A stretch of 64,000 nucleotides of DNA from a virus. The notes below the pieces were generated by a model that made no database searches, was not told where the DNA came from, and saw only the letters and a program-made list of their open reading frames with translations. Numbering within the stretch: the stretch's first letter is position 1; every line of letters begins with the position of its first letter. Both the position numbers and the translations under genes were made by a program. The DNA is taken from positions 62,001 through 126,000 of the IMG/VR virus record IMGVR_UViG_3300005337_000441. One strand, written 5' to 3'. Below are positions 5,148 through 62,921 of this stretch, in pieces.

Positions 5148-5623
5148 GCTATCTCGCTCCTTGTACTCATGAGTAAGGGGCAGTGCACCACAAGGGGCGG
5201 TACACCACGTCATAGCATTGAGCTCGCGGAGCCCGCTAGAGCTACTAGGGCGTAGCTCTAGCTCCACCGTGCTGAAGGTGAAAAACTCTCCATGCTTTAT
5301 ATCTAGTGAGGAGCATGGCGACGAACTCTAGCGAGAGCGTAGCGACGTCGAAGTGAGGATACCGGAGGTAGCCGAACGAGACCACACGGAGGGCGGAGCC
5401 CTCCTTAGTTCCCCCTCAGGATACCGCCTGTTTCCAGTAGATCTAAATATTTACTAAAAAATTCCACAGCGCAATGATGCGTAGTGGGGCCAACCCTGCA
5501 CCTACACCAATGGCGACTTGCCGGGTGTGGGTCAGGATCCCGCTATGCCCTCTCGGTGTGGATTTGGGGGCTTTTCTAACGTGACCACGGTCACACATAC
5601 TTAACATGAGGTAACCCTTAAGG
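5148..5623. other. Divergent non-coding control region
   Basis: 476 bases without a convincing gene between the minus-strand terminase operon and the + strand lysin/PhuZ operon. It holds a perfect 10-bp hairpin (5236-5245 with 5252-5261), a GGAGGGC/GCCCTCC hairpin near 5391-5407, an A+T-rich patch at about 5440-5465, a GTGAC/GTCAC inverted repeat at 5581-5594 and a promoter element at 5592. Promoters for both directions must lie here; a replication origin is possible but unproven. Confidence 0.6.
5592..5601 (+). promoter_or_regulatory. CACATATACT-class promoter, variant CACACATACT
   Basis: One mismatch to the element found before about ten other genes. It lies 22 bases before the transglycosylase start, leaving a very short leader with TAAGGA as ribosome site. 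Confidence 0.6.
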
Positions 5624-6187
5624 ATGCGAATGTATCAACTCTTTACCCGAATATGTTGGCTCCTGGCTTTAACGCTGGGAGTACATACAACTGCTTTCGC
5701 CAAAGGGAGAGTCCTACTCCCGGTAAGAGCCCCTATCACGATGAGTGACTACATCGATCTCAACTGCAAGGCGAGTTGCGCCGAACAGGAGGAGCTGCTT
5801 GAGTCCACGAATGAGGCCGCACAAGCCAATGAAGTGGATCAGAGGTTGTTGTTAGCCATCGTGAGAGTCGAATCTTCGTTCAAGGTGAGAGCGAGAAACG
5901 GCAGTAACGCAGGTTTGATGCAGGTGCACACGCGCTGGCATCGAAAGAAGCTCGTGGGGCAAGATCCCTACGCTGTGAAACTGAACATTGCAGTTGGCGC
6001 CGCAATTTACCGCGGATGCCTTGATAAGCATGGAGGGAACACCACCAAGGCTCTGAAGTGTTACAACGGCGCAGCGGATCCTCGCTACGTCGACAAGATC
6101 AGGAAAGCTCAAAGAGAAATTGATGCTCTCCTGTTGTTCAACTCAAAATCCTTTATCGGATCCTCCCCTAGTGAAAGCGAGAAATAA
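5624..6187 (+). CDS. Exported lytic transglycosylase (SLT-like)
   Basis: 187 residues. It begins with a Sec signal peptide (basic MRMYQLFTR, hydrophobic core to about residue 25, AFA cleavage site). The mature part has the goose-lysozyme/SLT signature: catalytic Glu in IVRVESSF, then NAGLMQVH, then NIAVGAAIY and ALKCYNGA. It would cleave peptidoglycan glycan strands in the periplasm. phiKZ-like phages use SLT-type endolysins, but this one has its own export signal and no separate wall-binding domain. Only three bases separate it from the tubulin gene. Confidence 0.9.
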   Translation: MRMYQLFTRICWLLALTLGVHTTAFAKGRVLLPVRAPITMSDYIDLNCKASCAEQEELLESTNEAAQANEVDQRLLLAIVRVESSFKVRARNGSNAGLMQVHTRWHRKKLVGQDPYAVKLNIAVGAAIYRGCLDKHGGNTTKALKCYNGAADPRYVDKIRKAQREIDALLLFNSKSFIGSSPSESEK

Positions 6188-6190
6188 CAA

Positions 6191-7159
6191 ATGCGAATGA
6201 AACTCTACGCCTGCGGCGGTGCTGGCATCAACACGGTCAAGCAGTTTGCCCCGTTCAACGGTCAAGCCAATCCGGGCTTTGCCACGATCGAAACCGTCTT
6301 CATCGACACGAGCCGCTCCAACCTGGACAGCAGCATCCCCGAGCAGATGACCTACCTGGTCCAAGAGCTCGACGGTTCGGGCAAGCGCCGTGCCACGAAC
6401 CATGCCGCTCTGTCCGAGAGCATCAACGAGATCCTGCTGGAACACCGTCCTGGCGACATCAACATCATCGTGCACTCTGCCGGCGGTGGCTCGGGCTCGG
6501 TGATCGGCCCGCTACTCACCAACGAACTGCTGGGTCGCGAGCAACTCGTCATCGTCCTGGCCATCGGTTCGACCTCTTCGAAGATCGAGACCGAGAACAC
6601 CAAGAAGACGCTGCAGTCGCTGGAATCGATCAGCCAGCGCCGCTCGATGCCGGTGTGCGTGTACTACCGCGAGAACACGCTGGAAAAGCCCCGTGGCGAC
6701 ATCGACCGCGATGTGTCCACTGCCATCTCGCTGATGACGGCCATCTTCTCGGGCCAGAACCGCGAGTTCGACACCGAAGACCTGCGCAACTTCCTGAACT
6801 ACCCGCGCGTCACGAGCTACCCGGCCAAGCTGTCCTACCTGGACCTGTTTGCCAAGGACATCGACCTGGACACCAAGAACGAGGCCATCGTCTCGCTCAT
6901 CACGCTGTCCAACGGTGAAGTCCCCACCGAAGTGCCTCAGCACGTCGAGTACCAGGCCACGGGTTACCTGCACGAGGCTGCGTTCAAGGTGGTCAAGCAA
7001 TCCATGCCGATCCACACGGCCGTGATCGCCGGTCACTTCAGCAAGCTCATCGGTCGCCTGGACAAGCGTCTGGCCGAGTTCGCTGAAATCCGCTCCACCG
7101 TGCACGAGAAGTCCATCCTCGGCTCCGCCTCCACGACCGACGACGGTATGGTGCTGTAA
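6191..7159 (+). CDS. phuZ: PhuZ-like phage tubulin
   Basis: 322 residues, the usual PhuZ length. The N-terminal GGAGIN (9-14) matches the FtsZ/tubulin nucleotide loop, and SAGGGSGS (about 96-103) matches the tubulin signature GGGTGSG. The C-terminus ends in a short tail with adjacent Asp residues (TTDDGMVL), as in PhuZ tails that link filament subunits. In phiKZ-like phages PhuZ is a GTPase that builds the spindle which centres the phage nucleus and carries capsids. It shares a promoter with the transglycosylase and ends at a terminator. Confidence 0.93.
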   Translation: MRMKLYACGGAGINTVKQFAPFNGQANPGFATIETVFIDTSRSNLDSSIPEQMTYLVQELDGSGKRRATNHAALSESINEILLEHRPGDINIIVHSAGGGSGSVIGPLLTNELLGREQLVIVLAIGSTSSKIETENTKKTLQSLESISQRRSMPVCVYYRENTLEKPRGDIDRDVSTAISLMTAIFSGQNREFDTEDLRNFLNYPRVTSYPAKLSYLDLFAKDIDLDTKNEAIVSLITLSNGEVPTEVPQHVEYQATGYLHEAAFKVVKQSMPIHTAVIAGHFSKLIGRLDKRLAEFAEIRSTVHEKSILGSASTTDDGMVL

Positions 7160-7170
7160 CCCAGAACAGG

Positions 7171-7197
7171 AGGCACGGGTCACACCGTGCCTCTTTT
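7171..7197 (+). terminator. Terminator after phuZ
   Basis: Stem AGGCACGG (7171-7178) with CCGTGCCT (7185-7192), then CTTTTACCGTC, a degenerate form of the TATGCCGTC tail seen at other gene ends. Confidence 0.8.
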
Positions 7198-7214
7198 ACC
7201 GTCTAGGAGACTGT

Positions 7215-7757
7215 ATGGTTACTCAAACCAAAACCTTCACGGGGTCAGATGAAGACTTTGCGGCGTTGTTGCAAACGCTGGGACGTCAAGATGCAGAAAT
7301 GAAGGATCCGGTATACGGCATGGGTTATGGTTCCAGTGACCCCAGAGACTACTGCAACCTCTGGACCGATGGCCATGGCGGCATGAGTCGCTTCGCCAAA
7401 TGGCATCTTGATCAAGGCATACCGTTTGCCAAGCTCTTTGGACCTGGTAGGCCGACCACGCTGGAGAAAATGCAGTACGCGATCAAGCAGTCGTATTACG
7501 AGCAGGGGTATCCGATCGATATGCTGAATCTACCGCGGCATTTCACTGGTGCCAAAACTGCACCTGGCGCCTTTCGGCGTTTGGCGGAGATCACGCTGCG
7601 CAACACCGTGCGTGGGGCTCATGCGCCGCCGTCCGCCCTGTACGGAACAGGTCCAGTCGATCCCATCGAGTACCGAAAACAGCTGGACCGAGAGATCAGC
7701 GACATCTTCGGCGTGGCAGCAGAGTTTCTGAGCCCACCCAAAAACAACAAGACTTGA
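7215..7757 (+). CDS. Unknown protein
   Basis: 180 residues starting at ATG 7215 after CTAGGAGACT. Gly/Tyr-rich N-terminal part (PVYGMGYGSSDPRDY) and a helical, charged C-terminal half. No family recognised. It stands alone between the phuZ terminator and a promoter element at 7827. Confidence 0.8.
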   Translation: MVTQTKTFTGSDEDFAALLQTLGRQDAEMKDPVYGMGYGSSDPRDYCNLWTDGHGGMSRFAKWHLDQGIPFAKLFGPGRPTTLEKMQYAIKQSYYEQGYPIDMLNLPRHFTGAKTAPGAFRRLAEITLRNTVRGAHAPPSALYGTGPVDPIEYRKQLDREISDIFGVAAEFLSPPKNNKT

Positions 7758-7826
7758 GGCGATTCGGGGGGCATTCCGGATGCGCAGAATTCGTCTGTGA
7801 AATAGGGGTGCCTAAACAAATGCAGT

Positions 7827-7836
7827 CACATATACT
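7827..7836 (+). promoter_or_regulatory. CACATATACT promoter
   Basis: Exact consensus; TAGACC follows 8 bases later (likely start near 7845), 58 bases before the first tandem paralog. No TTGACA-like -35 box stands at the expected distance. Confidence 0.75.
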
Positions 7837-7902
7837 CTATTTGCTAGACCCCCCATCCTTAACCTTTTCTAACTAGATAGTTCCTGACGAAGGAGAAACA
7901 GC

Positions 7903-8379
7903 ATGACGACTGCTGAAACCTCTAGCGCTGAAACTCGCACAACTCGCCAAGACGCATGCCGTCAGCTCTTTGAAAGCGCATATGAACGCGCTCCGAAGAC
8001 GCTGGATTTCAACCCGGCATGGTCCAACGGTGTGGGTCTGTATGACCACGCCGTGTATGGCGAGCACGCACCAGCGCTGCCTTTCGGCACCATGGCTCGC
8101 TCCCAGACAGGGGCGGGCCGCAAACTCCTGATCATCAGCACCCGCCTCGGCAACGTGGTGGTGTTCGAGCGCTTTCTCTCCGGCTCCAAGAATGCTCAAC
8201 CAGTCTACTGCCTGCAGTCCACCTCTGCGATGGCTGAAGGCGGTTGGTTCAGCCGCATGGAGCTTGACGACTATGAGCTCGAACTCGCTGTGGGCACGGA
8301 CGTCTCTCACCACATCGGCGGGAGACTCGACGTGATCCATTCCGCCATGAAGAAAACGGCTGGCCAATCCAACGGCTGA
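7903..8379 (+). CDS. Tandem paralog family member 1
   Basis: 158 residues, good ribosome site GAAGGAGAAAC. It shares with the next two genes a layout of TLDFNP-W near the N-terminus and a core of LIISTRLGNVVVFERF, then a Gly-rich GGW turn and a C-terminal VG.D...IGG segment. Function unknown; the shared core looks like a small alpha/beta domain. The three genes are separated by 35-52 bases, each with its own ribosome site, so they look like successive duplications. Confidence 0.88.
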   Translation: MTTAETSSAETRTTRQDACRQLFESAYERAPKTLDFNPAWSNGVGLYDHAVYGEHAPALPFGTMARSQTGAGRKLLIISTRLGNVVVFERFLSGSKNAQPVYCLQSTSAMAEGGWFSRMELDDYELELAVGTDVSHHIGGRLDVIHSAMKKTAGQSNG

Positions 8380-8414
8380 CGTGATCTCCATTAGGACATG
8401 AAAGGAGCAAAATT

Positions 8415-8843: not shown

Positions 8844-8895
8844 GCTGATTTATCGTTCCCCATAAACCTTATGTCACACTGAAGGAGAAAACGGC

Positions 8896-9312: not shown

Positions 9313-9318
9313 ACATAG

Positions 9319-9372
9319 CACCACCACTCCGGCAGGCTGTAAGGCCCGCTGGAGTGGTGATGTTTTTTTTTT
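9319..9372 (+). terminator. Strong terminator after the paralog cluster
   Basis: CCACCACTCC (9321-9330) pairs with GGAGTGGTG (9351-9359), with an inner GC-rich hairpin, followed by a run of ten T. Confidence 0.9.
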
Positions 9373-9399
9373 CTTTGCCTTTCTGAGAGACACACTGAT

Positions 9400-9409
9400 C
9401 ACATATACT
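9400..9409 (+). promoter_or_regulatory. CACATATACT promoter
   Basis: Exact consensus directly after the preceding terminator; likely start near 9417 (AAACCC). An isolated TATGCCGTC also occurs at 9471-9479, between this element and the gene at 9496. Confidence 0.75.
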
Positions 9410-9495
9410 TTCCTTGAAACCCTCTAAGAGAAATCTCAGCGAGTGGACTTATCTAATGTAAACCCCTGGCTATGCCGTCGTGGAAAGAAACACCC

Positions 9496-9873
9496 ATGCT
9501 CAGCAGCACCTTCTACACGACCAAGATCGTGGACATTCAATCCTTGCAAAGGTTCTTCGATGAGCACATCGCAGCCATTGCTCGGGACTATTCACTGTCA
9601 ACAGCCGATGCGACTCACGCCTACGATTGGTGCGTAACCGAGGCACTTACCCGCACCTTTCAAGTTGTGATCCAGTCGCGCGTGGAAGGTCACTACCGAC
9701 ATGACGTCTATCGCTGTGTCTACGATACCTACGGCAGCTACTTCGAAAGCTACCTGAGGTACTTCATGCAGCAAAACGCCATCGGGTTTGCACCCAACCA
9801 ACCTGTCAAAGCAATGGTTGCCGGCGGCAATCTGTTTGTGGCTCAAGGAGTGCCAGCAAATGCAAGATTTTAA
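9496..9873 (+). CDS. Unknown protein
   Basis: 125 residues from ATG 9496 (GGAAAGAAA ribosome site). The ATG at 9472 lies inside the repeated TATGCCGTC motif and has no ribosome site, so I reject it as start. Rich in aromatic residues with a helical middle (YRHDVYRCVYDTYGSYFES). Overlaps the next gene by 14 bases. Function unknown. Confidence 0.82.
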   Translation: MLSSTFYTTKIVDIQSLQRFFDEHIAAIARDYSLSTADATHAYDWCVTEALTRTFQVVIQSRVEGHYRHDVYRCVYDTYGSYFESYLRYFMQQNAIGFAPNQPVKAMVAGGNLFVAQGVPANARF

Positions 9874-10609: not shown

Positions 10610-10614
10610 CAGCC

Positions 10615-12212: not shown

Positions 12213-12219
12213 GGCGGAC

Positions 12220-12498: not shown

Positions 12499-12508
12499 CC
12501 TCTGACCG

Positions 12509-12844: not shown

Positions 12845-12851
12845 GGAACAC

Positions 12852-16871: not shown

Positions 16872-16893
16872 TCGGCTTAGAAAAGATTTCAGC

Positions 16894-16903
16894 AACACAT
16901 ACT
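16894..16903 (+). promoter_or_regulatory. CACATATACT-class promoter, variant AACACATACT
   Basis: Two mismatches from consensus; TTATGTGACC follows. 41 bases before the ATG at 16944. Confidence 0.55.
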
Positions 16904-16943
16904 TTATGTGACCCCTAACTCAAATCTTTCTCGGAGGGAGAAG

Positions 16944-17381
16944 ATGGATCAAGGTAAGGAAGCAATGAAGTTCTACGTGGTCACCGGTCACGTCATTGTG
17001 GCCGCTGCAAGACCAAAGGCACTGTCTCCTGTGCGGGAACTGGTGGTGGAGGTTGACGTCACGCACCGCCACGTCTTGGAACAGGACTTCAGACTGCATC
17101 GCTATTTGATGGCCTACGTCACGGAGCACGCAACCGAGTCGTTCATCCGTCACCTCAAGGCCGACAAGACGACGGCCAAGTCGATCGGGGGCACCCAGTG
17201 GCGTGTGTCCATTCGCGATCAAGAGTTCAAGCTTTTCCTCACCAGAGCGATGGCCGAGGAATACCTGAACAACCCTGAGCGGCCCAGTGGCCCTCATGAC
17301 CGTTTCACTTTCATGCGGGAGATGATCCTGGAAAACTATGACGACAGCACGAACAGCGTTATGCCTGCGAATCACGTCTAG
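16944..17381 (+). CDS. Unknown protein
   Basis: 145 residues from ATG 16944 behind GGAGGGAGAAG; the frame is open upstream but the ribosome site fixes this start. N-terminal beta-type segment (FYVVTGHVIVAAARP), then a helical charged part. No motif recognised. Overlaps the next gene by 44 bases. Confidence 0.82.
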   Translation: MDQGKEAMKFYVVTGHVIVAAARPKALSPVRELVVEVDVTHRHVLEQDFRLHRYLMAYVTEHATESFIRHLKADKTTAKSIGGTQWRVSIRDQEFKLFLTRAMAEEYLNNPERPSGPHDRFTFMREMILENYDDSTNSVMPANHV

Positions 17382-26510: not shown

Positions 26511-26585
26511 AAACCTTAGGGTGTAGCATGATCAACTCGATCACATAGGATTCGTTTATTTGTAACACTTCAAAACTATTTGAAT

Positions 26586-26595
26586 CACATATACT
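26586..26595 (+). promoter_or_regulatory. CACATATACT promoter
   Basis: Exact consensus; TAGAAC follows at about 26604, 34 bases before the gene at 26638. Lies in an A+T-rich gap between divergent genes. Confidence 0.78.
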
Positions 26596-26637
26596 TCACT
26601 CGTTAGAACAGAACTGCTCGTTTCAAAGGAGAACGTA

Positions 26638-27171
26638 ATGAGCACTGAGAGTTTGGATAGACAACAAGTCCGTCACCCTTACCGTGGCCGTGCGCCGCGG
26701 GGTCCTGACCTCTCCACCTTCGCAGCCATGGTGCGCAACCATGACTTCCTCTTCGAGAAGGCACGCATGGCGTCTGACGCCCCGCACGACTTCCTCGGGA
26801 GCTACGTGCCTCTCATGGCGCGCGAAATGGAGATCCTCCAGATGGCCTGGGAAGGCGGCGATGATTTCGTGCGGGTGCTTTCTTCGCACCTCGAACGCCG
26901 GCGCTCTGCGCTCGTCCCTCAGAAGACCCGTGACGACGATGCCGCCGAGGCCATCATCGCCACCGTGAGCGATGCCGAAAGAGAATACGCCGTGCAACTG
27001 GCGCACTTCGACTGGTGGCATTACATGGCCGACGATGGCGGTACGCTGCGTAAAGGCGGCGACCGCGAAGATGCGCTCAAGAAGATCGCCACAGAAAAAG
27101 GCGGCATGTTCCAAAGACTCTTCGACTTCTTCATCGAAAAGCGAAACGCGGCTCTTCGGAGCCACAAGTAA
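26638..27171 (+). CDS. Unknown protein
   Basis: 177 residues, strong AAAGGAGAACGTA site. Basic N-terminus, then charged helices with aromatic clusters (HFDWWHYMADD). No motif recognised. First gene behind a CACATATACT promoter. Confidence 0.83.
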   Translation: MSTESLDRQQVRHPYRGRAPRGPDLSTFAAMVRNHDFLFEKARMASDAPHDFLGSYVPLMAREMEILQMAWEGGDDFVRVLSSHLERRRSALVPQKTRDDDAAEAIIATVSDAEREYAVQLAHFDWWHYMADDGGTLRKGGDREDALKKIATEKGGMFQRLFDFFIEKRNAALRSHK

Positions 27172-27573: not shown

Positions 27574-28194
27574 ATGCGTTACCAAGTCGGACAGAAGTAT
27601 CTGTTCATCGATGTTCAATTCAAACCCGCCCAACCCAGGTTTGGTCACATGTACTGCCCCTGGGAGGACACCCTCGAAAGCGTCACGATTGTGGAACTCA
27701 CCTGTGCTGAGCACCACCGTGTGCCCGGCGAGTGGGACGACGAAGTCAAGTACGACGGCTTCATTTTCACCGACGCCCAAGGCAACAAGTGGGACAACCA
27801 GTACCCCCGCGCCGCCTACGGCCAACTCGACACCAGCAACGACCAGCGCGTTCTGCGCTATACCACGGGGTTCGACGGAAAACCTCAACAGCTCAACATG
27901 ACGGACTTCTCGTCCTACATGGAAACGCTGCTGCGGGGTGTGCGTGACCTGAAGAAACGGGCCACTGAACCGAAGGACCGCGACACCCCTGAGTGGCTCA
28001 ACAATGCCGCAGAGTCTCTGAACAAGTTCTACAAGGACCTCGACGAGAAACTGCGCGCTGAGTTCGGTCGCAAGGCCGTCAACGTGGGCTGGACGGCCAA
28101 CTACACCGACGGCCGCCCGCCTGAGCACGTGCCGGAAATTCCGGACGTGCAGATCGTGCCGGTGGATCAAGAACTCGCACACATCGAGTACTGA
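27574..28194 (+). CDS. Unknown protein
   Basis: 206 residues, strong AAAGGAGAAACC site. Tyr/Trp/Asp-rich first half that looks beta-structured (YLFIDVQFKP, YDGFIFTDAQGNKWDNQYP) and a helical second half. No recognised motif. One base separates it from the next ATG. Confidence 0.82.
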   Translation: MRYQVGQKYLFIDVQFKPAQPRFGHMYCPWEDTLESVTIVELTCAEHHRVPGEWDDEVKYDGFIFTDAQGNKWDNQYPRAAYGQLDTSNDQRVLRYTTGFDGKPQQLNMTDFSSYMETLLRGVRDLKKRATEPKDRDTPEWLNNAAESLNKFYKDLDEKLRAEFGRKAVNVGWTANYTDGRPPEHVPEIPDVQIVPVDQELAHIEY

Positions 28195-30855: not shown

Positions 30856-31077
30856 ACAAGTGCTCCTTACATCCACCTGGAGGCAACTCCAGGTGGAGAT
30901 ATAAGGTTCACTACGTTGTCTCGGGATCAAATCCCGTTTCTAACGTTGTTCAGCCCCTTATACTTTAACTGGAAAAAGGTAGCTGATGACTTGCTTCCCC
31001 CTTGTACACGGTGGGGTGTACCGTGTAGTGTGTTTTAGCTAAAACGTTCTTAGAAAACCTCTTTGGAGAAAATTGCA
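30856..31077 (+). promoter_or_regulatory. Long structured 5' leader of chimallin
   Basis: No gene. Contains a 9-bp hairpin CCACCTGGA/TCCAGGTGG (30873-30896), CGGGA/TCCCG (30922-30936), a TTATACTTTAACTGG element near 30958 that may be another promoter, TACACGGT/ACCGTGTA (31005-31027), and the perfect palindrome GTTTTAGCTAAAAC (31032-31045) before GGAGAA and the ATG. Such a leader suggests mRNA stabilisation or translational control of a very abundant protein. Confidence 0.6.
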
Positions 31078-32937
31078 ATGGCAATCCACGACGACCAAAA
31101 CGACGGCAACCGTACCTCCGCTGCAAGCGCGCAGGGCGGTTTCAACGCCTTCGACAGCTTCCACACCGGCGGCCTGTTCGCTGCCCCCATCAGCCAGGGC
31201 ATGGGCTCCGAGTTCTACACCAAGGTGAAGCAGGGCCTGCTGGACCTGTACAAGGACGTCAACCCCAACGTCAAGATCGCCCTGATCGACCTGGACAACG
31301 TCAACAACCCCGCTTTTGACTTCTCCAACATCATCGTCGCCGCGCAGCTGAAGAACGCTCCGGAACTCGGCGTCGCCTACCACATCCTGGCCCTGGAAGC
31401 CACCGGCGAGAAGCTGGGCCCGGTCATGGACACCATCAACAACCAGACCATCGAGATCCAGCGCGTCACCTCCGACACCATCGACACCGCCCTGGTCAAG
31501 GCCGCCGCCGCCAAGGTCGAAGCTGCCTTCCCCGGCGTCGCCAGCCACTGGGTCGATGCGACCGTGGTGCCCGACACCTTCAACCCCGATGACAAGACCG
31601 CCATGCACAAGCTGGCGCTGTTCACCGGCCTGGCCTGCTCCACCGAGCTGCAGATCCACTCGCCTGACTTCCGTGACCTGAACCTGGCTCACATCAAGAA
31701 CGAAGGCCAGCTGACCGTGCGCCTGGACTTCGGCCGCCAGCAAGTCGAGAACATCGTCGGCCAGCCGCAGCGCTCCGACGTCAGCGGCTCCCTGACCAGC
31801 CGCAAGAACGTCCCGGGCCGTCAGGCTCAGGTCAACACCGGTGACAAGGAAGCTCACGTCGCCCGCGTCGGCGGCTTCATCGATCTGGTCTGGGCGCCGC
31901 GCGGCGGTGACACGGGCTTCAACCCGTGGCTCGCCCAGCAGCAGCAACAGCAAATGGCCATGAACCCGATGCTCACGCAGAAGTACGCTGCGCGTCTGGT
32001 CCTGACCGACATCCAATCCCGCTTCGCCTACACGCCTTCGCTGGTGCTGCTGGCCGTGGCCACCTCGCTGACCGCGAGCGACAACAACAACTGGTTCCAA
32101 GCCTACCGTCCCACTCCGTCGGCCGGCAAGGGTTCCATCGACCTCAACGACATCGGCGCTCTGAACATCGAGGCCAACATCTCCAACGAACCCGGCGGCT
32201 TCGGCTCGCGCATCAACACGAAGGGCGAGGAATTCCAGCTGTCGCAGCTGGGCACGCTGATCGGCATGATGGTGCAACCGGGCATGATGCTGGCCATCGA
32301 CGTGCCGGAAGCTGGTCCGCAGTCGTGGTACCTGTCCATGTTCGCCAACGCGGCGAACGGCAGCCAGGCCGCCTACGACGCCATCTACAACGCCGCCAAC
32401 GAGCTGACCAACGGCGCCTTCAGCCGCCACTTCGCTGCTGGCACGCAGATGTTCGTCGACACGAACAACCGCGTCCACCTCGGCAACTGGACGGACCGTC
32501 TGGGCAACAAGCGCGACATCCGCGACATCGACTACCTGGCCGTCGCCAACCTGCTGGGCGACTCCAACCCGTCGGCGATCCGCGACTGGAGCGACACGTT
32601 CCTGCGCACCGAGTACCCGCTGCCCCAGCGTCTGGCCGCTCGCAAGCGCATGATCAGCAGCCTCACCGGCGAGACCGCGGTCTTCACCGGCTTCGCTCAG
32701 CGCGTCACCTTCAGCGGCAAGTTCCTGGCCGCCTTCGGTGCTGCTCTGCGTGAAGTCAGCCCGCCGATGCGCGTCACCACCCCGCTGTCGGCTTCCGAGC
32801 TGAGCAACCAGCGCGGCTACGCCGGCTTCGCCGAGCAGGCCATGCTGGCTCCGGGCCAGACGTTCGCCCAGGTCGGCGGCTTCGGCAACGCCAACGCCTA
32901 CGCCGGTTACTTCGGTCCGGCGCAGCGCTGGATGTAA
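31078..32937 (+). CDS. chmA: Chimallin-like phage-nucleus shell protein
   Basis: 619 residues from ATG 31078 behind CTTTGGAGAAAATTGCA; a TTG at 31063 overlaps the ribosome site and is rejected. Length agrees with ChmA (about 600-665). An Ala/Gly-rich flexible N-terminal stretch is followed by a domain with NPNVKIALIDLDNV and LGVAYHILALEATGEKLGP, then VDATVVPDTFN, a layout I recognise from chimallins; Gly/Ala-rich C-terminal tail. ChmA self-assembles into the shell that shields phage DNA. Extreme bias to C-ending codons marks high expression. A capsid protein is the main alternative, less likely given the N-terminal half. Confidence 0.83.
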   Translation: MAIHDDQNDGNRTSAASAQGGFNAFDSFHTGGLFAAPISQGMGSEFYTKVKQGLLDLYKDVNPNVKIALIDLDNVNNPAFDFSNIIVAAQLKNAPELGVAYHILALEATGEKLGPVMDTINNQTIEIQRVTSDTIDTALVKAAAAKVEAAFPGVASHWVDATVVPDTFNPDDKTAMHKLALFTGLACSTELQIHSPDFRDLNLAHIKNEGQLTVRLDFGRQQVENIVGQPQRSDVSGSLTSRKNVPGRQAQVNTGDKEAHVARVGGFIDLVWAPRGGDTGFNPWLAQQQQQQMAMNPMLTQKYAARLVLTDIQSRFAYTPSLVLLAVATSLTASDNNNWFQAYRPTPSAGKGSIDLNDIGALNIEANISNEPGGFGSRINTKGEEFQLSQLGTLIGMMVQPGMMLAIDVPEAGPQSWYLSMFANAANGSQAAYDAIYNAANELTNGAFSRHFAAGTQMFVDTNNRVHLGNWTDRLGNKRDIRDIDYLAVANLLGDSNPSAIRDWSDTFLRTEYPLPQRLAARKRMISSLTGETAVFTGFAQRVTFSGKFLAAFGAALREVSPPMRVTTPLSASELSNQRGYAGFAEQAMLAPGQTFAQVGGFGNANAYAGYFGPAQRWM

Positions 32938-41346: not shown

Positions 41347-41390
41347 CCCATGGAGTCCCGGGGGAAACCCTGGGGCTTTATGCCGTCTTC
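41344..41390. terminator. Terminator after dcd
   Basis: GTCCCGGGG with CCCTGGGGC forms the stem; GACCCATGG and TATGCCGTC (41379-41387) frame it. Confidence 0.82.
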
Positions 41391-41407
41391 TTGTAAACCA
41401 ACTCAGT

Positions 41408-41417
41408 CACATATACT
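41408..41417 (+). promoter_or_regulatory. CACATATACT promoter
   Basis: Exact consensus; TAATACC at about 41425, 56 bases before the gene at 41481. Confidence 0.78.
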
Positions 41418-41480
41418 TTCAGTGTAATACCCGCGCACTTACACCTTCAACCCCGCCTACGACTAAAGGAGAAACTGGTC

Positions 41481-41756
41481 ATGGCACTGAAAGTAAACGT
41501 CATTCAAGTCCGTGCACAATTGGAGCACGATCGCATTGTGTTGGATGCTGCGATCCAACGTGAAAAGATCAGAATGGTCAGATCCCTCGTGGTGATGGCC
41601 AAACTGGCTCGCGACTATCTGGCGCCGGAATTCCTGCGCTTTTATGAACAACTGGAAAAATTGCTGGTCGACCAACCATATGAGGTTGAACTCATCGGGG
41701 AGCGTCTCGATGAGGTTATTGATTTCTTCGGCCAGAAGAATCCTACCTTCCACTAG
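41481..41756 (+). CDS. Unknown small helical protein
   Basis: 91 residues, strong AAAGGAGAAACTGGTC site. Charged helices with heptad-like spacing (VIQVRAQLEHDRIVLDAAI). Function unknown. Confidence 0.8.
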   Translation: MALKVNVIQVRAQLEHDRIVLDAAIQREKIRMVRSLVVMAKLARDYLAPEFLRFYEQLEKLLVDQPYEVELIGERLDEVIDFFGQKNPTFH

Positions 41757-48490: not shown

Positions 48491-48514
48491 TCCCTTTCTG
48501 AATCCTCCGTGAGC

Positions 48515-48524
48515 CACATATACT
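48515..48524 (+). promoter_or_regulatory. CACATATACT promoter
   Basis: Exact consensus; TAGAACC at about 48532, 29 bases before the ATG at 48561. Confidence 0.78.
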
Positions 48525-48560
48525 TTGACTGTAGAACCAACCACCTCACCAGGAGTCTTC

Positions 48561-48842
48561 ATGCAAACTCTGCCCGCTTCCGCTATCGAGAAACTCAACC
48601 GCGACGACAAGGGTCTGTTCGCGAAGATCACTGGCGTGACCAAGAACAGCGTCACGATCGACTTGAAGGATGGTTTCTCCTTCACTGTGCAGACCGAGGG
48701 CGACGGCGTCAAGTACTACATCGACGACACCCTGCGCTTCAACGACCTGGGCGATGTGATCGAAAAAGAAGAAGCGCCGCAGAGCCACGTCAAGGCCGGC
48801 TCGACCCGCACGAGTTCGTCCTACGTGAAGTCACCCCTCTGA
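48561..48842 (+). CDS. Unknown small protein
   Basis: 93 residues from ATG 48561 behind CAGGAGTCTTC. Beta-rich small domain (FAKITGVTKNSVTIDLKDGFSF is split here: FAKITGVTKNS and TIDLKDGFSF) that reads like an OB/SH3-type barrel, with a Ser/Thr-rich tail. Function unknown. Confidence 0.8.
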   Translation: MQTLPASAIEKLNRDDKGLFAKITGVTKNSVTIDLKDGFSFTVQTEGDGVKYYIDDTLRFNDLGDVIEKEEAPQSHVKAGSTRTSSSYVKSPL

Positions 48843-49980: not shown

Positions 49981-50002
49981 GGCTTTTGAAATTCTTCATG
50001 GG

Positions 50003-50013
50003 CACACATATCT
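50003..50013 (+). promoter_or_regulatory. CACATATACT-class promoter, variant CACACATATCT
   Basis: One base shorter than consensus; TACGTATAGG follows. About 70 bases before the RNA polymerase gene at 50084. Confidence 0.6.
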
Positions 50014-50083
50014 TACGTATAGGCAGGTGGGTCCCCGCCTGTTTCTACGTACTCCTAAATCCGACCTCTGAGGAGCAAGAGCC

Positions 50084-51490
50084 TTGCCAGTTTACCAGAA
50101 ACTGCTGAACCTGTCCGAGATGTTCCAGCAGCTCTCCGAGCCGCCCATCATCATCAACGATCTGTTCAGTGGCACGCAAGATGATCGTGCCAACATCATG
50201 GAGCTGATCACCACCCGCTACACGTCCGACATGGTGAGCCTGCTCCCCTCGTGTCGATGTGGACTGACGAAGGGGGAATTCTCCAAGAACACGATCTGCG
50301 ACACCTGCAAGACGCCGGTGAAGTCGATGATCGACTCCGACATCGAACCGATCGTCTGGTTCCGCAAACCCAACGGCGTGCAAAAGCTCATCAATCCGAT
50401 CGTCTGGATGATGCTGAGCCACCGGTTCAAGAAGGGCAGCTACAGCGTCCTGAACTGGATCATCGACACGAAGTACAACCCCAACACGAAGCCGCCCACC
50501 GCCATCTTGAACAAGATGATGCAAGCCGGCATTCAGCAGGGCTACAACTACTTTGTGGAGAACTTCGACGACATCATGGAGTTCATGTTCTCCCTGAAGG
50601 AGTTCAAGAAAAAGCCTGACGACCGGCTGCAAGAGCTGATCCGTCGTGACCGGCATCTGGTGTTCTCGGACTACATCCCGATTCCCAACAAGTCGATCCT
50701 GGTGGTGGAGAAGACCAACTTCTCGACCTATGTGGACGAGATCATCACGAACGCGGTCAACGCGATCCAGATGCTCGTCTCCATCGACCGGGACTACCAC
50801 GACCAGTCGGTGCGCGGCAAGGAGAACCGAACCGCGAAGGCGATGACGCTGCTGTGGGACTTCTACCTGAAGTACTTCAGCGACAACGTCTCCTCCAAGC
50901 AAGGCCAGTTCCGCCGCCACATCTTTGGCTCTCGAACCAACTTCTCGTTCCGTGCCGTGATCACCTCGATCACGGGGCCGCACAACTACAACGAGATCGA
51001 GATCCCGTGGGGTGTGGGTCTGACGGTCTTCCGTGAGCACTTGCTCAACAAGCTCGCTCGCATGGGTCTATCCATGAACCAAGCGGTCGGCTTGCTGCAC
51101 AAGCACATCGAGAAGTACAACCCGATGCTCGACGGGATCTTGAACGAGATCATCGCTGAGTTCCCGGGTGGTGCAGTTCCGCTGTTGCTCAACCGCAATC
51201 CGTCGCTGCTGCAAGGCTCGATCCTGGCGCTGCAATGCCGCACCATCAAGAAGGATCCGAAGGATCGCACGATTGGCCTGTCCATCCTCGTCGTCAAGCA
51301 ACTCAATGCTGACTTCGACGGTGACGAAGTCAACTGCTCGCTCCTGCTGGACAACAAGATGGCCGCGGCCTGCTATCCCTTGGAGCCGAAGTTCTCGATC
51401 TACGGTATGGGCAAACCCCTGGCCGTCTCGGGCAACGTCTCCATCCCGCGTCCCAACATCAGCAGCATCAGCCGCTGGCTCTCTGCGTAA
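50084..51490 (+). CDS. Multisubunit RNA polymerase beta-prime, N-terminal part
   Basis: 468 residues; TTG start at 50084 behind GAGGAGCAAGAGCC. Zinc-ribbon Cys57, Cys59, Cys72, Cys75; KQGQFRRHIFGSRTNFSFR (272-290) equals the conserved switch region; LLLNRNPSLLQGSI (367-380) equals the RAPTLHR region; and NADFDGDEV (408-416) carries the three Mg2+-binding Asp of the active site. The reading ends soon after, so the C-terminal half of beta-prime must be another gene, as in phiKZ. Whether it belongs to the virion or the non-virion enzyme cannot be told here. Confidence 0.93.
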   Translation: MPVYQKLLNLSEMFQQLSEPPIIINDLFSGTQDDRANIMELITTRYTSDMVSLLPSCRCGLTKGEFSKNTICDTCKTPVKSMIDSDIEPIVWFRKPNGVQKLINPIVWMMLSHRFKKGSYSVLNWIIDTKYNPNTKPPTAILNKMMQAGIQQGYNYFVENFDDIMEFMFSLKEFKKKPDDRLQELIRRDRHLVFSDYIPIPNKSILVVEKTNFSTYVDEIITNAVNAIQMLVSIDRDYHDQSVRGKENRTAKAMTLLWDFYLKYFSDNVSSKQGQFRRHIFGSRTNFSFRAVITSITGPHNYNEIEIPWGVGLTVFREHLLNKLARMGLSMNQAVGLLHKHIEKYNPMLDGILNEIIAEFPGGAVPLLLNRNPSLLQGSILALQCRTIKKDPKDRTIGLSILVVKQLNADFDGDEVNCSLLLDNKMAAACYPLEPKFSIYGMGKPLAVSGNVSIPRPNISSISRWLSA

Positions 51491-52967: not shown

Positions 52968-52988
52968 ACCTTTTAAAACAAGCTTGGT

Positions 52989-52998
52989 CACATATACT
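52989..52998 (+). promoter_or_regulatory. CACATATACT promoter
   Basis: Exact consensus; AAGCAG at about 53006, 51 bases before the gene at 53057. Confidence 0.76.
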
Positions 52999-53056
52999 CA
53001 ACTTGAAGCAGTGTAGTGATCACTAGCTAACAAATTTTAAAGCAGAGGAAACTCTC

Positions 53057-53680
53057 ATGATTCAAGTCATTCAGGCGGATGACCCGCGGGTGTTCGACTA
53101 TTCGATCTTCCCGCAGCAGTCGCCGATGAACATGGTGTACATCCAGCAGAACTTGTCGCAGTTCTCGGATGCTCTGAGTGAAAGCGGGCGCGCTTTCATG
53201 GAGCACCATCGCGCCATCTACGAAGCCATCGACCACAGCGAGATTGCCCGCAAGGCACGTCGCGTCATGCGCTCAGTCAAAGGTCTCTTCACGCCTGACA
53301 GCATTGTTGCGCTGGAGACACTGGAAGACCTGCAAAACGCACAACTGCAAATGCAGCGGTACATGATGGCGATGCCGGACATCCGCAAGCTGTACTTCCG
53401 CAACAAGTGTGACGGCTTCCGTGACACGTACGTGGACATGGAACCCAACCGCATCGGTGACGATCACTACGACTACCGCAAGGTCATGAGCGGTCACGTT
53501 GAAGTCATGGACGACGGCAGCTGGTGCGCTCGCCAGTACTTTGACGAACTGCACGAAGGCGATCGAGCGCTCGACGCAGATGAGCGCATGCTCATCCGTA
53601 AGACTTGGGATGCCATGCGCCTGGCAATCCAACAAGGGCAAGATCCGACGAACATGTTCGGCGGAGATCTCGGCGTTTAA
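53057..53680 (+). CDS. Unknown protein
   Basis: 207 residues, GCAGAGGAAACTCTC site. Helical with many Met/His/Asp; C-terminal segment ends FGGDLGV. No motif recognised. Confidence 0.82.
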   Translation: MIQVIQADDPRVFDYSIFPQQSPMNMVYIQQNLSQFSDALSESGRAFMEHHRAIYEAIDHSEIARKARRVMRSVKGLFTPDSIVALETLEDLQNAQLQMQRYMMAMPDIRKLYFRNKCDGFRDTYVDMEPNRIGDDHYDYRKVMSGHVEVMDDGSWCARQYFDELHEGDRALDADERMLIRKTWDAMRLAIQQGQDPTNMFGGDLGV

Positions 53681-57881: not shown

Positions 57882-57909
57882 TCCAGCGACAAAACACGAC
57901 ACCATCATG

Positions 57910-57940
57910 GCACGGGACTGACGAGGAGTCAGTCCCGTGC
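57910..57940 (+). terminator. Terminator after the SSB-like gene
   Basis: Perfect 13-bp stem GCACGGGACTGAC with GTCAGTCCCGTGC around GAGGA; little T behind it. Confidence 0.8.
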
Positions 57941-57956
57941 TTAACCGGTTCACGGC

Positions 57957-57966
57957 CACATATACT
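57957..57966 (+). promoter_or_regulatory. CACATATACT promoter
   Basis: Exact consensus; TAGAAG at about 57974, 51 bases before the ATG at 58025. Confidence 0.78.
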
Positions 57967-58024
57967 CTATGTGTAGAAGCGCTACGGAAGTGGCCTTCAA
58001 AGTCCGCGTTGACACCGAGGGGAT

Positions 58025-59587
58025 ATGCAAGCAACTGCGCACGTTCATGTTCCGAGTGCGACACCATACGTCAAGCTCGAACACGGAGAAGATAGCGTCA
58101 CCTTCTCCATCTCTGTTTTCAGTCGAAAGAACTTCCAAGGAGAGTCTGAGGGAACTTTCGATCACATCAACCAGTACTGGGCACAACTCCCCGCAGCCCG
58201 CCAAAACAAGATCTTCGAAATCTACAAGGCCATCGAGCATGGCATGGACAACATCTACAAGCAACAAGACCTGACGGAATACCTGACGGATCGTGTTGCT
58301 GAGCTGATCGCGGCGCATGACCTGGACGCCGTGCAGTACTGGGTCCAAAACAAGTCCACCATCGTGATCCCTGGTGTTTTCGATGTGGACTACCAGCATT
58401 CCTTTGACAACAACACAAGCCGCGAGAAGACCTACACCCGTGGGGACTACGTCAAGCTGGTGTCGTTGTCGGTGTTGCTGCGCTGCATGATCCCGGTGTG
58501 GGGTACGTACATCTCCCACGTCCGTTCACTCACCGGCACGCTCTTCAAGGAAACGGCTGCGTTCAAGCTGCTCAACAAGTCCCCGATCGTTCACAGCGAA
58601 GCCATGCAAAAGCTGCGGACCTACGTCGAGAACATCGTCGGCGAGGACAAGTACAACCCGAACGTCGTTCACCAGGGCATCTCCTCCGAGGACTTCTGCT
58701 ACTGGCTCACCGCCATGATCTGCATTCGCAGGTTGTGCGTGGGTAACGTCTACGGAGCCGAGCCGCGTGCTCACCTCGTGGCGTTCATCTACAAGTTCAT
58801 CATGCGGCACATCCAGGGTGCGGAGACTTCCTCCGAAACCGCGGTGCGCGACAAGAAGAACGACGAGCAAGAAGCCAGCAGCTTCGGTGACAAGATCTCG
58901 GTGCTGGAGCGGTACAAGATCAAGTTCAATCTCTCGCCTGGCGAGATGGTCGAGCTTGAGATGACCATGCGCGACATGTGGGAAGCCGCGAACAAGATCA
59001 CGAGTCGTATCGACCCGGACGTCTTTAGGCGGGCGATGGTCACGTCGCTGGAACTGGCCAACAAACGCTTGACGGACCCGCAGATCAACATCCTGCGCTG
59101 GGTTTTCAAGAGCGTCATCTCGCCGCGCGGCATGATGTACCTACCCAATCCCACGGTCGTGGCAGCGCTCGGTGCCTGCGAAGCGATCCTCTGGTCGCTC
59201 GGCTACAAGTACCCGGCCATCCTCGTGACGTGCTATCCCGAGGTGAGTGAGCGTCCGTCCGAGTTGCGTGTCTCGCACACCGACTCCAAGATGCAGATCC
59301 CGGCCGATCTCCAGGCGAAGCTCGCCTATCTCTATCCCTTCAGCCGTCAAGTGAAGGGCAAGAAGTCCGACAACAATGGTCAAGACGTCAAGGTGGTGAA
59401 CCCCACTGCCAAGACCATCTCTGACCTCGCTGACAACCTGCGTATGTTCGCTTGGCGCCCCACGTGCCATGAAGACATGCTCATGGAAGTCTTTGGTGTG
59501 ACCAACCGCCGTGCGCCCGTGCGTCCTGACATCAAGATCGAGATCACTCGTCTGGTGGTGGACATCGGTGAACGCCGCTGGACTTAA
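58025..59587 (+). CDS. Protein in the position of phiKZ gp68 (possible RNAP accessory subunit)
   Basis: 520 residues, ATG 58025 with GAGGGGAT upstream. Largely helical, with no motif I can name. Its length and its place three genes before the beta C-terminal gene parallel phiKZ gp68, the extra promoter-recognition subunit of the non-virion RNA polymerase. This is inference from gene order and size, not sequence recognition. It has its own CACATATACT promoter. Confidence 0.7.
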   Translation: MQATAHVHVPSATPYVKLEHGEDSVTFSISVFSRKNFQGESEGTFDHINQYWAQLPAARQNKIFEIYKAIEHGMDNIYKQQDLTEYLTDRVAELIAAHDLDAVQYWVQNKSTIVIPGVFDVDYQHSFDNNTSREKTYTRGDYVKLVSLSVLLRCMIPVWGTYISHVRSLTGTLFKETAAFKLLNKSPIVHSEAMQKLRTYVENIVGEDKYNPNVVHQGISSEDFCYWLTAMICIRRLCVGNVYGAEPRAHLVAFIYKFIMRHIQGAETSSETAVRDKKNDEQEASSFGDKISVLERYKIKFNLSPGEMVELEMTMRDMWEAANKITSRIDPDVFRRAMVTSLELANKRLTDPQINILRWVFKSVISPRGMMYLPNPTVVAALGACEAILWSLGYKYPAILVTCYPEVSERPSELRVSHTDSKMQIPADLQAKLAYLYPFSRQVKGKKSDNNGQDVKVVNPTAKTISDLADNLRMFAWRPTCHEDMLMEVFGVTNRRAPVRPDIKIEITRLVVDIGERRWT

Positions 59588-59628
59588 ACCACATCTCCCC
59601 CCGTATTTACAGCACAAGGAATACCACA

Positions 59629-61089
59629 GTGTTTGAACAAGTCCTGCCGACTCAGGCTCAGCTTCAGATCACTCAACTGGACATCTTGGAAACTGGGACT
59701 TACAACCCCATGTATGCCAGGCCGTTTCAGATGAACGTCTCCGGCGATCGGTTGCAAGACATCACGGCGCGCGTCGAGAACTCGGGCGGTCAAGGTGTCA
59801 GTGCTTCGCTGCTTGGCGGTATTGCAGGTTCTATCCTGCGTCCGACCGAAGCCGCGCAGCATCAAGTGCCCATCCACATGGGTTGGGCTGAAAGGCGTTT
59901 GCGTTTCGTGATGTGGGTCGAGGCTCGCTCGCCCGCAGGCACGGTCTCCAACTACATCTTCCAAGGCTTCACGTCCTACGCGGGTGTCAGCCATGGTGGC
60001 GCCATCGACGAGAAGGAGATGGAGTTCTTCATCAACTCCTACATCCGCACCAATGGCGTCATGGTGCAGACCGATTACGGTACCGAGATGCGATACCAGG
60101 TGACCGAGTCCGCTCAGGTCATCAACGGCCAGATCGTGCGCAACTTGGAAAACCCCGAAGCCGACGTGTACGGTATGCGGCCGGGTGACATCTACACCGG
60201 CATCCAAAGCGGCTACCTGCAAAACGCCTACAGCGGTTACGGTCAAGGTTCGTTGTTGGACACGCGTGTGCAGCTGGGCGGCGACTCCGTCAACTCCAAG
60301 CGTGGCAACTGCCTGCCGAGCAACTACCTGGCCGGCATCGTCACCAACTACCGCACTGCGTCGGACCTCATCAGTTTCGGCCAAGGAACCGAGGACATCT
60401 ACGGTCGTGCGCGTGAGCTCAGCTACGAGCCCTCGCCCAACGAGAACCCGTTCATCCGTCAGCTCTCGCATGTGCGGAGCATGCCCAACCAAACGCGCTT
60501 CACCTATTCCAACCTGCGCACCATCTCTCCCCACATCGACAGCGTGACCACGTTCCGCGTGCTCGGTCCGACGGCGCGTGCCACCATGCACCAAGCCGGT
60601 CAGACCGCGTACTGGCACGGTCGTGACCACGACACGATCTGGGCGAGCCTGCTGAGCAATGCGGTTCCTGCACTCATGACTGAGCTCATGATCGGCCGCA
60701 TCGACTTCAGCTCCACCAACGACGCCATCGGCGGGGTCATCAACACCGCCATCGGCGACATCAGCGGCTTGTCCAACGTGGACATGTCCAGCAACATGAG
60801 GATGTTCATCCACCGTCTGCAGTCCGAGATCCTCTCTGATCTCGCCTACGACGGCCACATCTTCCATCTGCGCATGAGCTGCAACATCTACGGGGAGTCG
60901 ACGATCGATCTGAAGCTGGACGCCAGTCCGCCGTCACGCTTCACCACGCCGTCCTTCAGCGATGGTCTTTTCGCGCCTGTGTTCACTTCGGAGGTCAACT
61001 CCTACAGTAGCATGGTCAACAACTTCGAAGTGCTCATGAACCAGCTGCCGGGTAACGCCGGCAACAAGGGCTTGAACACGGCCATCTGA
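59629..61089 (+). CDS. Unknown conserved-type protein of the RNAP module
   Basis: 486 residues from GTG 59629 (GCACAAGGAATACCACA site). Beta-rich, Ser/Gly/Asn-rich, without catalytic motif: structural character. In gene order it would match phiKZ gp69. Strong codon bias suggests an abundant product, perhaps a virion component. Confidence 0.8.
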   Translation: MFEQVLPTQAQLQITQLDILETGTYNPMYARPFQMNVSGDRLQDITARVENSGGQGVSASLLGGIAGSILRPTEAAQHQVPIHMGWAERRLRFVMWVEARSPAGTVSNYIFQGFTSYAGVSHGGAIDEKEMEFFINSYIRTNGVMVQTDYGTEMRYQVTESAQVINGQIVRNLENPEADVYGMRPGDIYTGIQSGYLQNAYSGYGQGSLLDTRVQLGGDSVNSKRGNCLPSNYLAGIVTNYRTASDLISFGQGTEDIYGRARELSYEPSPNENPFIRQLSHVRSMPNQTRFTYSNLRTISPHIDSVTTFRVLGPTARATMHQAGQTAYWHGRDHDTIWASLLSNAVPALMTELMIGRIDFSSTNDAIGGVINTAIGDISGLSNVDMSSNMRMFIHRLQSEILSDLAYDGHIFHLRMSCNIYGESTIDLKLDASPPSRFTTPSFSDGLFAPVFTSEVNSYSSMVNNFEVLMNQLPGNAGNKGLNTAI

Positions 61090-61099
61090 AAGCAACAAC

Positions 61100-62491
61100 A
61101 TGAATTTGATCCAAGTCTACGAGCCCCTGTTGCAGTTCGCCGGCATGACCGCCGACGAGAAAGGGTACGTCTCGACCTTCGCGAAGGAACCGGTGATCAT
61201 CGGCGGCAACCGCCTGGTGCTGCCCACGGTGTTCCAGCTGCGTGAGTGCATGGAGCGTGAGCGCATCGTCTTTCACCCGATGGCCGAGGACATTGTCCAA
61301 AGCGAATCGCCGGTTGTGAAGAAGCTGCGGCACAACATCGCCGTGCGCGTGAACCAAGCCATCGGCGTGCTGGGTCAAGCCCTCTTGAGCCTTGCGGCCT
61401 CGCCCGCGCTGCACAAGAAGCTCGACCCTCAGCAGTTGAAGCTGCTCACCTCCATCCGCGAAGTCGACCACAAGTCGGCGGAGAACTTCGGCATGGCGGC
61501 AGTGGCCAACATGAAGGAAGCGGCCGATCGGGCATTCGTGCACCTCTACCTCTGCCGGGGTGGCACGCACGAAGGCAAGAAGTACTCGCGCCTGGGCGTG
61601 GTGAGCTTCCCTTGCATCGCCAAGATCAAGGAAGGTGACTTCTACGCCAAGGCCCGGGTCAAGGACAAGGACACGTTCCTGGAGTTGCTGAACTACATGT
61701 TCCCCAACTGCGAGAACGACGACGCCTACAACGTCGGCTCCGATTCCCTGAAGGCGCCGTTCCTGCATGCGCTCATGCTCACCGCCGGTCAACTGGCTGC
61801 CCGCATCAACGAGCTGGTCGAGCTCTTCGAGGAGTACATCCCCTTCTCCGAAGACTTCACCAAGGAAGCGGTGATGTTCAACATGGACTGGTCGCCTGTG
61901 ATCATGAACATGGAAGAACACACGCAGCTCATCAACAGCGTGCCGCCTCAGAGCAGCGCGGTGGTGCCGCCTGAACCCGAAGCGCCTGTGGTGACTGCCG
62001 CTGCGCCGATGGTGCCGGTGATGCATGATCGTCGTGCGCCAGCTCCCGTGGCCGCTCCTGCTCCTGTGATGGCGCCTGAAGTCGTGAAGACCAACGGCGG
62101 CCTGGACTTCAACTCGGTCCTGCGCAAGGCTCAAGCCACAGCCGTGGCCTCAGCCTATCCGGGCGGTGTTGTCGTGCCGCAAGGCATGATGATGGTTCCC
62201 GTGGGCGGCTTGCCTCCGGGTCTGATGCCGGCTGGTGTGCCGATGGGTTATCCGCAGCAAGGCATGATGCCTCAGGGCATGATGCCTCAAGTGCGTGTTC
62301 CGACCTGGGCTCAGCCCTCGCCGGACCAGGTGATGGTGCAGACGCCGCAAGGTCCCATGACGCAAGCCGTGGCCATGCAGTACGGTCTGCAAATCCTGGG
62401 CATCATCGGTCCCGTGAATCAAGGCGCTCCGCAAATGACGCCGAGTGGTTACGGCATGCATCCCGTGCCGGGTTGGGCACAAGGCCGTTGA
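61100..62491 (+). CDS. Unknown protein with Pro/Met/Gly-rich C-terminal tail
   Basis: 463 residues, ten bases after the preceding gene. Helical domain to about residue 280, then a low-complexity tail rich in Pro, Ala, Val and Met (PQQGMMPQGMMPQVRVP) of about 180 residues. Such tails are seen in phage structural or scaffold-like proteins. It would correspond to phiKZ gp70 by order. Ends in a bidirectional terminator. Confidence 0.8.
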   Translation: MNLIQVYEPLLQFAGMTADEKGYVSTFAKEPVIIGGNRLVLPTVFQLRECMERERIVFHPMAEDIVQSESPVVKKLRHNIAVRVNQAIGVLGQALLSLAASPALHKKLDPQQLKLLTSIREVDHKSAENFGMAAVANMKEAADRAFVHLYLCRGGTHEGKKYSRLGVVSFPCIAKIKEGDFYAKARVKDKDTFLELLNYMFPNCENDDAYNVGSDSLKAPFLHALMLTAGQLAARINELVELFEEYIPFSEDFTKEAVMFNMDWSPVIMNMEEHTQLINSVPPQSSAVVPPEPEAPVVTAAAPMVPVMHDRRAPAPVAAPAPVMAPEVVKTNGGLDFNSVLRKAQATAVASAYPGGVVVPQGMMMVPVGGLPPGLMPAGVPMGYPQQGMMPQGMMPQVRVPTWAQPSPDQVMVQTPQGPMTQAVAMQYGLQILGIIGPVNQGAPQMTPSGYGMHPVPGWAQGR

Positions 62492-62492
62492 T

Positions 62493-62550
62493 GACGGCAT
62501 AGACGGCATAGAGCCTGGGCCCCAAAGCCCAGGCTCTAGCCATCTCTTTT
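62493..62550. terminator. Bidirectional terminator with doubled GACGGCATA
   Basis: GACGGCATA occurs twice in direct repeat (62493-62501 and 62502-62510) before a stem TAGAGCCTGGGC with GCCCAGGCTCTA (about 62509-62538), then CATCTCTTTTTT. Serves the + gene ending at 62491 and the minus gene ending at 62559. Confidence 0.87.
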
Positions 62551-62558
62551 TTGAGGTG

Positions 62559-62885
62559 TCAGGGTTTGGTTTGGTAGATGTTTTTCAGCAGATCGATCTC
62601 GTCGAGCTTGGGCACCACCACCTGGCTGATGTCGCCGGTGAAGTCCGCGGGACTGAAGAGGTCGTTGACACGCATCACGGCGTAGTGGTAGCGCTTGTCA
62701 ATCTTCAGGTCCAAAAGCAAACCGAAGAAGTCGCCCTGGTATTTCACGCATTGCGTGTTGGTGAGTTGGTTCACGACCACGCCATCCAGCGTGCGCAGGT
62801 AGGTCAAGTGGTCTTCGATGACCTGCATGAATCCCGCCGAGTAGTAGTCGTCCTCGACAGTGGGGGAAAGTGTATCGATGTCCAT
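62559..62885 (-). CDS. Unknown protein on the minus strand
   Basis: 108 residues from ATG at 62885 (AGGAACCGTTCC upstream on the minus strand); a longer frame to 62942 has no ribosome site. Begins MDIDTLSPTVEDDYYS; acidic alpha/beta sequence. It interrupts the RNAP gene run on the opposite strand. Function unknown. Confidence 0.72.
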   Translation of the reverse strand: MDIDTLSPTVEDDYYSAGFMQVIEDHLTYLRTLDGVVVNQLTNTQCVKYQGDFFGLLLDLKIDKRYHYAVMRVNDLFSPADFTGDISQVVVPKLDEIDLLKNIYQTKP

Positions 62886-62911
62886 GGAACGGTTCCTAAA
62901 TTGTTGCTGGC

Positions 62912-62921
62912 CACATATACT
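62912..62921 (+). promoter_or_regulatory. CACATATACT promoter before the RNAP beta gene
   Basis: Exact consensus; TAGACC at about 62929, 72 bases before the ATG at 63001. Confidence 0.78.

Follow-up and report, generated by a model that had tools for sequence, protein, structure and literature searches.

The window analysed here, i.e., the whole stretch of 64,000 nucleotides, corresponds to G000:62001-126000, G000 being the 215,768-base IMG/VR record IMGVR_UViG_3300005337_000441. Judging from orthology with phiKZ genes and from PHROG and Pfam matches, the DNA is that of a nucleus-forming, phiKZ-related phage with chimallin, PhuZ, and both RNA polymerases (RNAPs). The two multisubunit enzymes are encoded by orthologs of gp178, gp180, gp149, and gp80 (virion RNAP) and of gp55, gp68, gp71-73, gp74, and gp123 (non-virion RNAP, nvRNAP); this division of the phiKZ gene products follows established phiKZ knowledge, together with annotated records. 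The genes of the window to which a function could be assigned were the following:

5624-6187: SLT lytic transglycosylase-domain protein (PF01464), between a variant promoter and PhuZ
6191-7159, + strand: PhuZ phage tubulin, phiKZ gp39 ortholog (Pfam tubulin PF00091; phmmer)
31078-32937, + strand: chimallin, the major nuclear shell protein, phiKZ gp54 ortholog (phrog_4795, 1.5e-86)
50084-51490, + strand: nvRNAP subunit, phiKZ gp55 ortholog (phrog_2987, 1.5e-146)
58025-59587, + strand: fifth nvRNAP subunit, phiKZ gp68 ortholog (phrog_3209)
63001-64000, continuing to G000:127106, + strand: nvRNAP subunit, fused phiKZ gp71/gp73 ortholog (phrog_3295, 1.8e-190)

The putative early promoters of the window, some of which recur in the relative G003 (see below), were distributed as follows:

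5574-5608, + strand: variant core CACACATACT at 5592 with RNA predicted to start at G 5608, 16 nt upstream of the SLT transglycosylase gene, which is followed by PhuZ
7809-7843, + strand: exact core at 7827 with RNA predicted to start at 7843, upstream of gene 7903-8379 (no PHROG match)
9382-9416, + strand: exact core at 9400 with RNA predicted to start at 9416, upstream of gene 9472-9873 (no PHROG match)
16876-16910, + strand: variant core AACACATACT at 16894 with RNA predicted to start at 16910, upstream of gene 16944-17381 (no PHROG match)
26568-26602, + strand: exact core at 26586 with RNA predicted to start at 26602, upstream of gene 26638-27171 (no PHROG match)
30937-30971, + strand: degenerate core CCCTTATACT at 30955; precedes chimallin; also before the G003 ortholog
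41390-41424, + strand: exact core at 41408 with RNA predicted to start at 41424, upstream of gene 41481-41756 (no PHROG match)
48497-48531, + strand: exact core at 48515 with RNA predicted to start at 48531, upstream of gene 48561-48842 (no PHROG match)
49985-50019, + strand: weak, degenerate site, core CACACATATC at 50003, lacking the G at +16; precedes the gp55 ortholog; also in G003
52971-53005, + strand: exact core at 52989 with RNA predicted to start at 53005, upstream of gene 53057-53680, phiKZ gp59 ortholog; also in G003
57939-57973, + strand: exact core at 57957 with RNA predicted to start at 57973, upstream of an operon of gp68, gp69, and gp70 orthologs; also in G003
62894-62928, + strand: exact core at 62912 with RNA predicted to start at 62928, upstream of an operon of nvRNAP gp71/73 and gp74 orthologs; also in G003

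The SLT transglycosylase gene is predicted to be early because of its position between the variant promoter and PhuZ. The six promoter-proximal genes without PHROG match are candidates for encoding host-takeover proteins. Three promoter-proximal genes (5624-6187, 9472-9873, and 41481-41756) were overlooked by the codon model, hinting at an unusual composition.

The motif is an overrepresented AT-rich element of about 10 nt, seven of its ten core bases being A or T. All eight exact copies of CACATATACT listed in the initial annotation were found at the positions given there, on the + strand; dinucleotide shuffles predicted 0.03 copies by chance and none of them produced eight. The two variants reported at 5592 and 16894 were likewise present and high-scoring. 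The one reported at 50003 does exist but is weak, with a degraded core and without G at +16, and the degenerate site at 30955 before the chimallin gene had been overlooked. Over the whole record, CACATATACT occurred 15 times, always on the + strand, with no copy on the reverse strand and none of a reversed control sequence. An equal motif density inside genes, named beforehand as an observation that would speak against promoters, was not seen genome-wide, since none of the 15 exact copies fell within the 87% of the genome that is coding (genes from a self-trained codon model plus a few added ORFs; p ~6e-14).

A search profile built from 24 sites, all from this same genome, recovered 29 + strand sites scoring at least 16, the next match scoring 8, and no minus-strand site scoring at least 8 anywhere in the genome. 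All but one of these 29 sites were intergenic. Where it could be resolved, the start codon lay 10-107 bases past the predicted transcription start, usually with a ribosome-binding-like sequence; the first start codon is less certain at G000:46755 and at the window site 9400. A partial match to the extended motif, CACATGTACT at window position 27646, lies within a called gene, was absent from the initial annotation, and is probably due to chance.

Alignment of the 15 exact sites, then of 28 intergenic sites (position 0 being the first C in the core), revealed a longer element, in which TTnTRAAA and TTTYRGY, in this order, precede CACATATACT and a near-invariant G follows after six more bases. 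The first block lies about 11-18 bases upstream of the core, with T-rich columns at -18 to -16 and A at -14 to -12 (22 of 28 sites at -13). The second abuts the core, with T/T/T/C at -7 to -4 followed by a purine and G at -3/-2 (G in 23/28); it corresponds to the upstream TTTYARR block of OBP, N1M2, and 201phi2-1, which is thus present here. Within the core, which spans 0 to 9, C occupied +8 in 26 of the 28 sites, and downstream of it we observed T at 10/11 as well as at 15 (23/28 for the latter), followed by G at 16 in 27 of 28 sites. The absence of a shared -35 box noted initially was confirmed as far as the sigma70 hexamer TTGACA is concerned, but the idea that nothing is shared upstream needs correction because the aligned sites have TTnTRAAA and TTTYRGY in common. 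Transcription had been proposed to start 7-8 bases past the element; by analogy with phiKZ and AR9, the likely start is instead a G located six bases past the core, at +16 from its first base. This six-base gap was found in 27 of 28 sites here and in all 18 sites of G003.

A site precedes all nvRNAP subunit operons (gp55, gp68, gp71/73-74, and gp123), the chimallin gene, and the PhuZ operon, the gp123 ortholog (G000:207859) being the second gene past an exact site at G000:206695. Of the genes that the initial annotation placed under control of the motif, PhuZ is second in its operon, behind the transglycosylase gene, and the two RNAP genes encode non-virion subunits, just the kind of gene that one would expect behind an early promoter. 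No site was found directly upstream of the gp178, gp180, gp149, gp80, or major capsid genes; for gp149, the closest upstream site is about 4.8 kb away, before the RNase H ortholog. Sites at the nvRNAP operons and none directly at the virion polymerase genes form the pattern expected if an injected polymerase makes the second one. The "early" status of the genes was taken from their phiKZ orthologs.

We compared these sites with those of G003 (IMGVR_UViG_3300046096_000189), a 164 kb genome of 41% GC vs 57% in this phage, with a median protein identity of 43% (reciprocal best matches, a set that includes some antisense ORFs). The profile of this phage detected 18 sites scoring at least 14 in G003, all on one strand. 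Among reciprocally matched called genes, 9 of the 10 with a site here also had one in G003 vs none of the 76 others (Fisher 2e-11). The sites retained include those of chimallin, gp55, gp59, gp68, gp71/73, the gene preceding gp123, and gp124, the exception being the phiKZ gp155 RNase H ortholog, which has a site here and none in G003. The promoters that we derived for G003 share the core, including two exact CACATATACTTAACTTGA copies, as well as the orthologous positions, although their consensus is looser (CAYATATAYT); most columns of the extended element were conserved, with one visible difference, T instead of A at -14. A scan of IMG/VR with the extended DNA pattern returned six contigs, among which only G003 carries the gp71/73 polymerase gene. 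A single-protein search of IMG/VR with chimallin gave no relatives, and a near-identity DNA search among phages gave no match.

According to the literature, every RNAP-encoding jumbo phage carries such a motif before presumed early operons (PMC7598289). The published early promoters of OBP (BSHAWWWWWTTTYARRYAKATATTATYWWADTG), 201phi2-1 (ending in TATATTACDWHDGTG), and phiKZ (TATATTAC) (PMC7058600) align in register, and the geometry seen here recurs in OBP, N1M2, and 201phi2-1. With phiKZ, 201phi2-1, OBP, N1M2, and EL, it shares a TTTYARR-type block, an AT-rich core of about 10 nt, and a single motif per phage placed before early operons, as well as TG at +15/+16 wherever the published consensus reaches that far. 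It differs from these five phages by having ACT at +7 to +9 instead of TAC, TAT, or CAC, and its core, in a 57% GC genome, contains three G/C bases. The early promoter of AR9, AAATATATATTAT-(6N)-G, was mapped experimentally, and phiKZ and phiR1-37 also have a conserved start 6 nt past the element (PMC5312081). AR9 thus exhibits the same six-base gap to the start G and a core centered near -10, although it is a uracil-DNA Bacillus phage without phage nucleus and its core is entirely A/T. In the Burkholderia phage FLC9, whose chimallin is 38% identical, we derived CACATAT then ...ACTTG in the same register, with CAC/TAC at +7 to +9 as the difference. Our scan recovered the promoters of phiKZ, 201phi2-1, SA002, RAY, and FLC9, most sites having TG at +15/+16; in LucasX, no convincing motif was obtained with the seed used.

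The dedicated phage RNAP promoter proposed initially was thus retained as the best explanation and can be specified further. Sequence, position, orthology, and conservation together make it very probable that the motif family represents early promoters read by the virion (injected) RNAP. What is known of phiKZ and AR9 leads us to predict that the virion polymerase recognizes these sites, that RNA starts at the nucleotide indicated, and that transcription is early and resists rifampicin. The virion-packaged multisubunit RNAP (gp178, gp180, gp149, and gp80 orthologs) would enter with the DNA, recognize TTnTRAAA-n-TTTYRGY-CACATATACT, melt the AT-rich part, and begin RNA at the G six bases past the core. 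This first wave would yield early takeover proteins, chimallin, PhuZ, and all subunits of the non-virion polymerase, which would then transcribe later genes. In phiKZ, 28 early promoters drive nvRNAP subunit expression according to a 2026 review (PMC13282480). The degenerate sites before chimallin and gp55, the latter without the +16 G, are points against the early-promoter reading, as are the RNase H ortholog that has its site here only and the training of the search profile on sites of this very genome.

The sites could alternatively be promoters read by the non-virion polymerase, since the genome encodes this enzyme as well, and both phiKZ and AR9 possess phage promoters that it reads. We regard this as unlikely: the sites precede all the genes of an enzyme that must exist before it can act, and none lies immediately ahead of the major capsid gene or of the virion polymerase genes. 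Moreover, the late signals known from phiKZ (TATG) and AR9 (AACA-6N-TA/G) differ from this motif and are shorter; our sites carry YG at +15/+16 with no fixed TA preceding it, and correspond to neither.

Host sigma70-type promoters seem even less plausible, although TATACT matches the sigma70 consensus -10 box TATAAT at five of six bases and a start about 6-7 bases downstream would be compatible with sigma70 spacing. The consensus TATAAT itself was found in none of the sites, C being present at +8 in 26 of 28, and TTGACA, which sigma70 promoters would have 15-19 bp from a TATAAT-like -10 box, showed no enrichment (mean best match 3.18 of 6 vs 2.86 in shuffled sequences). Sigma70 promoters do not feature the conserved CACA, TTTYRGY, and +15/+16 TG, the orthologous promoters of relatives carry TATATTAC-type cores, and phiKZ infection is rifampicin-resistant. 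Finally, a strand-specific and intergenic motif would also fit a non-promoter signal between genes, such as a nick, packaging, or RNA-processing site; we give this almost no credence, given the tight spacing to start codons, the conserved G at a fixed distance, the association with particular orthologous genes, and a layout identical to that of the mapped AR9 promoters.

We searched IMG/VR with a gp71/73 alignment and retrieved 80 relatives. Among about 77 related loci, most had a site of this architecture upstream of gp68, gp71, or both. The generic-seed scan was permissive (235 matches on the coding strand vs 96 on the opposite strand), so that single weak matches count little and it is recurrence at the gp68/gp71 positions that counts. 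Of 50 related records, 8 contained exact CACATATACT-6N-G, always confined to a single strand of the record. Nearly all relatives have ATAT-YAY at +3 to +9, whereas ATAT-AYT was found in this phage, G003 (L089), L048, L049, L061, and L082. In separate scans, these six genomes had AYT sites, whereas YAY sites above background were few or lacking, the situation being reversed in FLC9, 201phi2-1, and others; L094, L119, and L127 were mixed AYT/YAY loci.

In the gp71 tree, the six AYT genomes formed a single clade with strong support (100/99), and in its sister clade some rows had no clear promoter class. Automatic labeling gave ten AYT loci, among them L058, L106, L122, and L125 elsewhere on the tree, and four changes when all ten were counted, but on inspection these four loci look like shifted-register or weak matches. 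Upstream of gp71, L058 and L106 have a promoter-like GTTACATATTACC offset by about two bases from the usual register. Since the six AYT genomes form one supported clade, we are inclined to think that its ancestor underwent a single change, from ATAT-YAY to ATAT-AYT, in the promoter specificity of the sigma-less virion polymerase, the rest of the promoter remaining fixed. The early-promoter type is already known, but the altered ATAT-AYT core looks new; a literature search for the literal core returned only unrelated primer-type matches among the matches listed.

If this single change is real, the AYT clade and its neighbors would form a natural experiment to locate the promoter-reading part of the virion polymerase. 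In the family-wide comparison, promoter geometry is fixed across genomes of about 30-60% GC, bases +7 to +9 varying by lineage, and such natural core variants make sigma-less promoter recognition testable by base and subunit swaps. The early regulon of an uncultured nucleus-forming phage could be assigned, at the level of prediction, from sequence alone, and it includes several small early genes without known relatives as host-takeover candidates.

We also observed that the gp178 gene, intact in this phage (G000:37158-41603), is interrupted around phiKZ residue 1073 by about 300-2000 inserted bases in G003 (G003:13713-19143), G007, G031, G015, G012, G022, and 201phi2-1. An intron with a homing endonuclease is known in an RNAP gene of PhiPA3 (PMC11620839, PMC12908238), and the interruption of gp178 suggests a recurrent intron or homing-endonuclease site.
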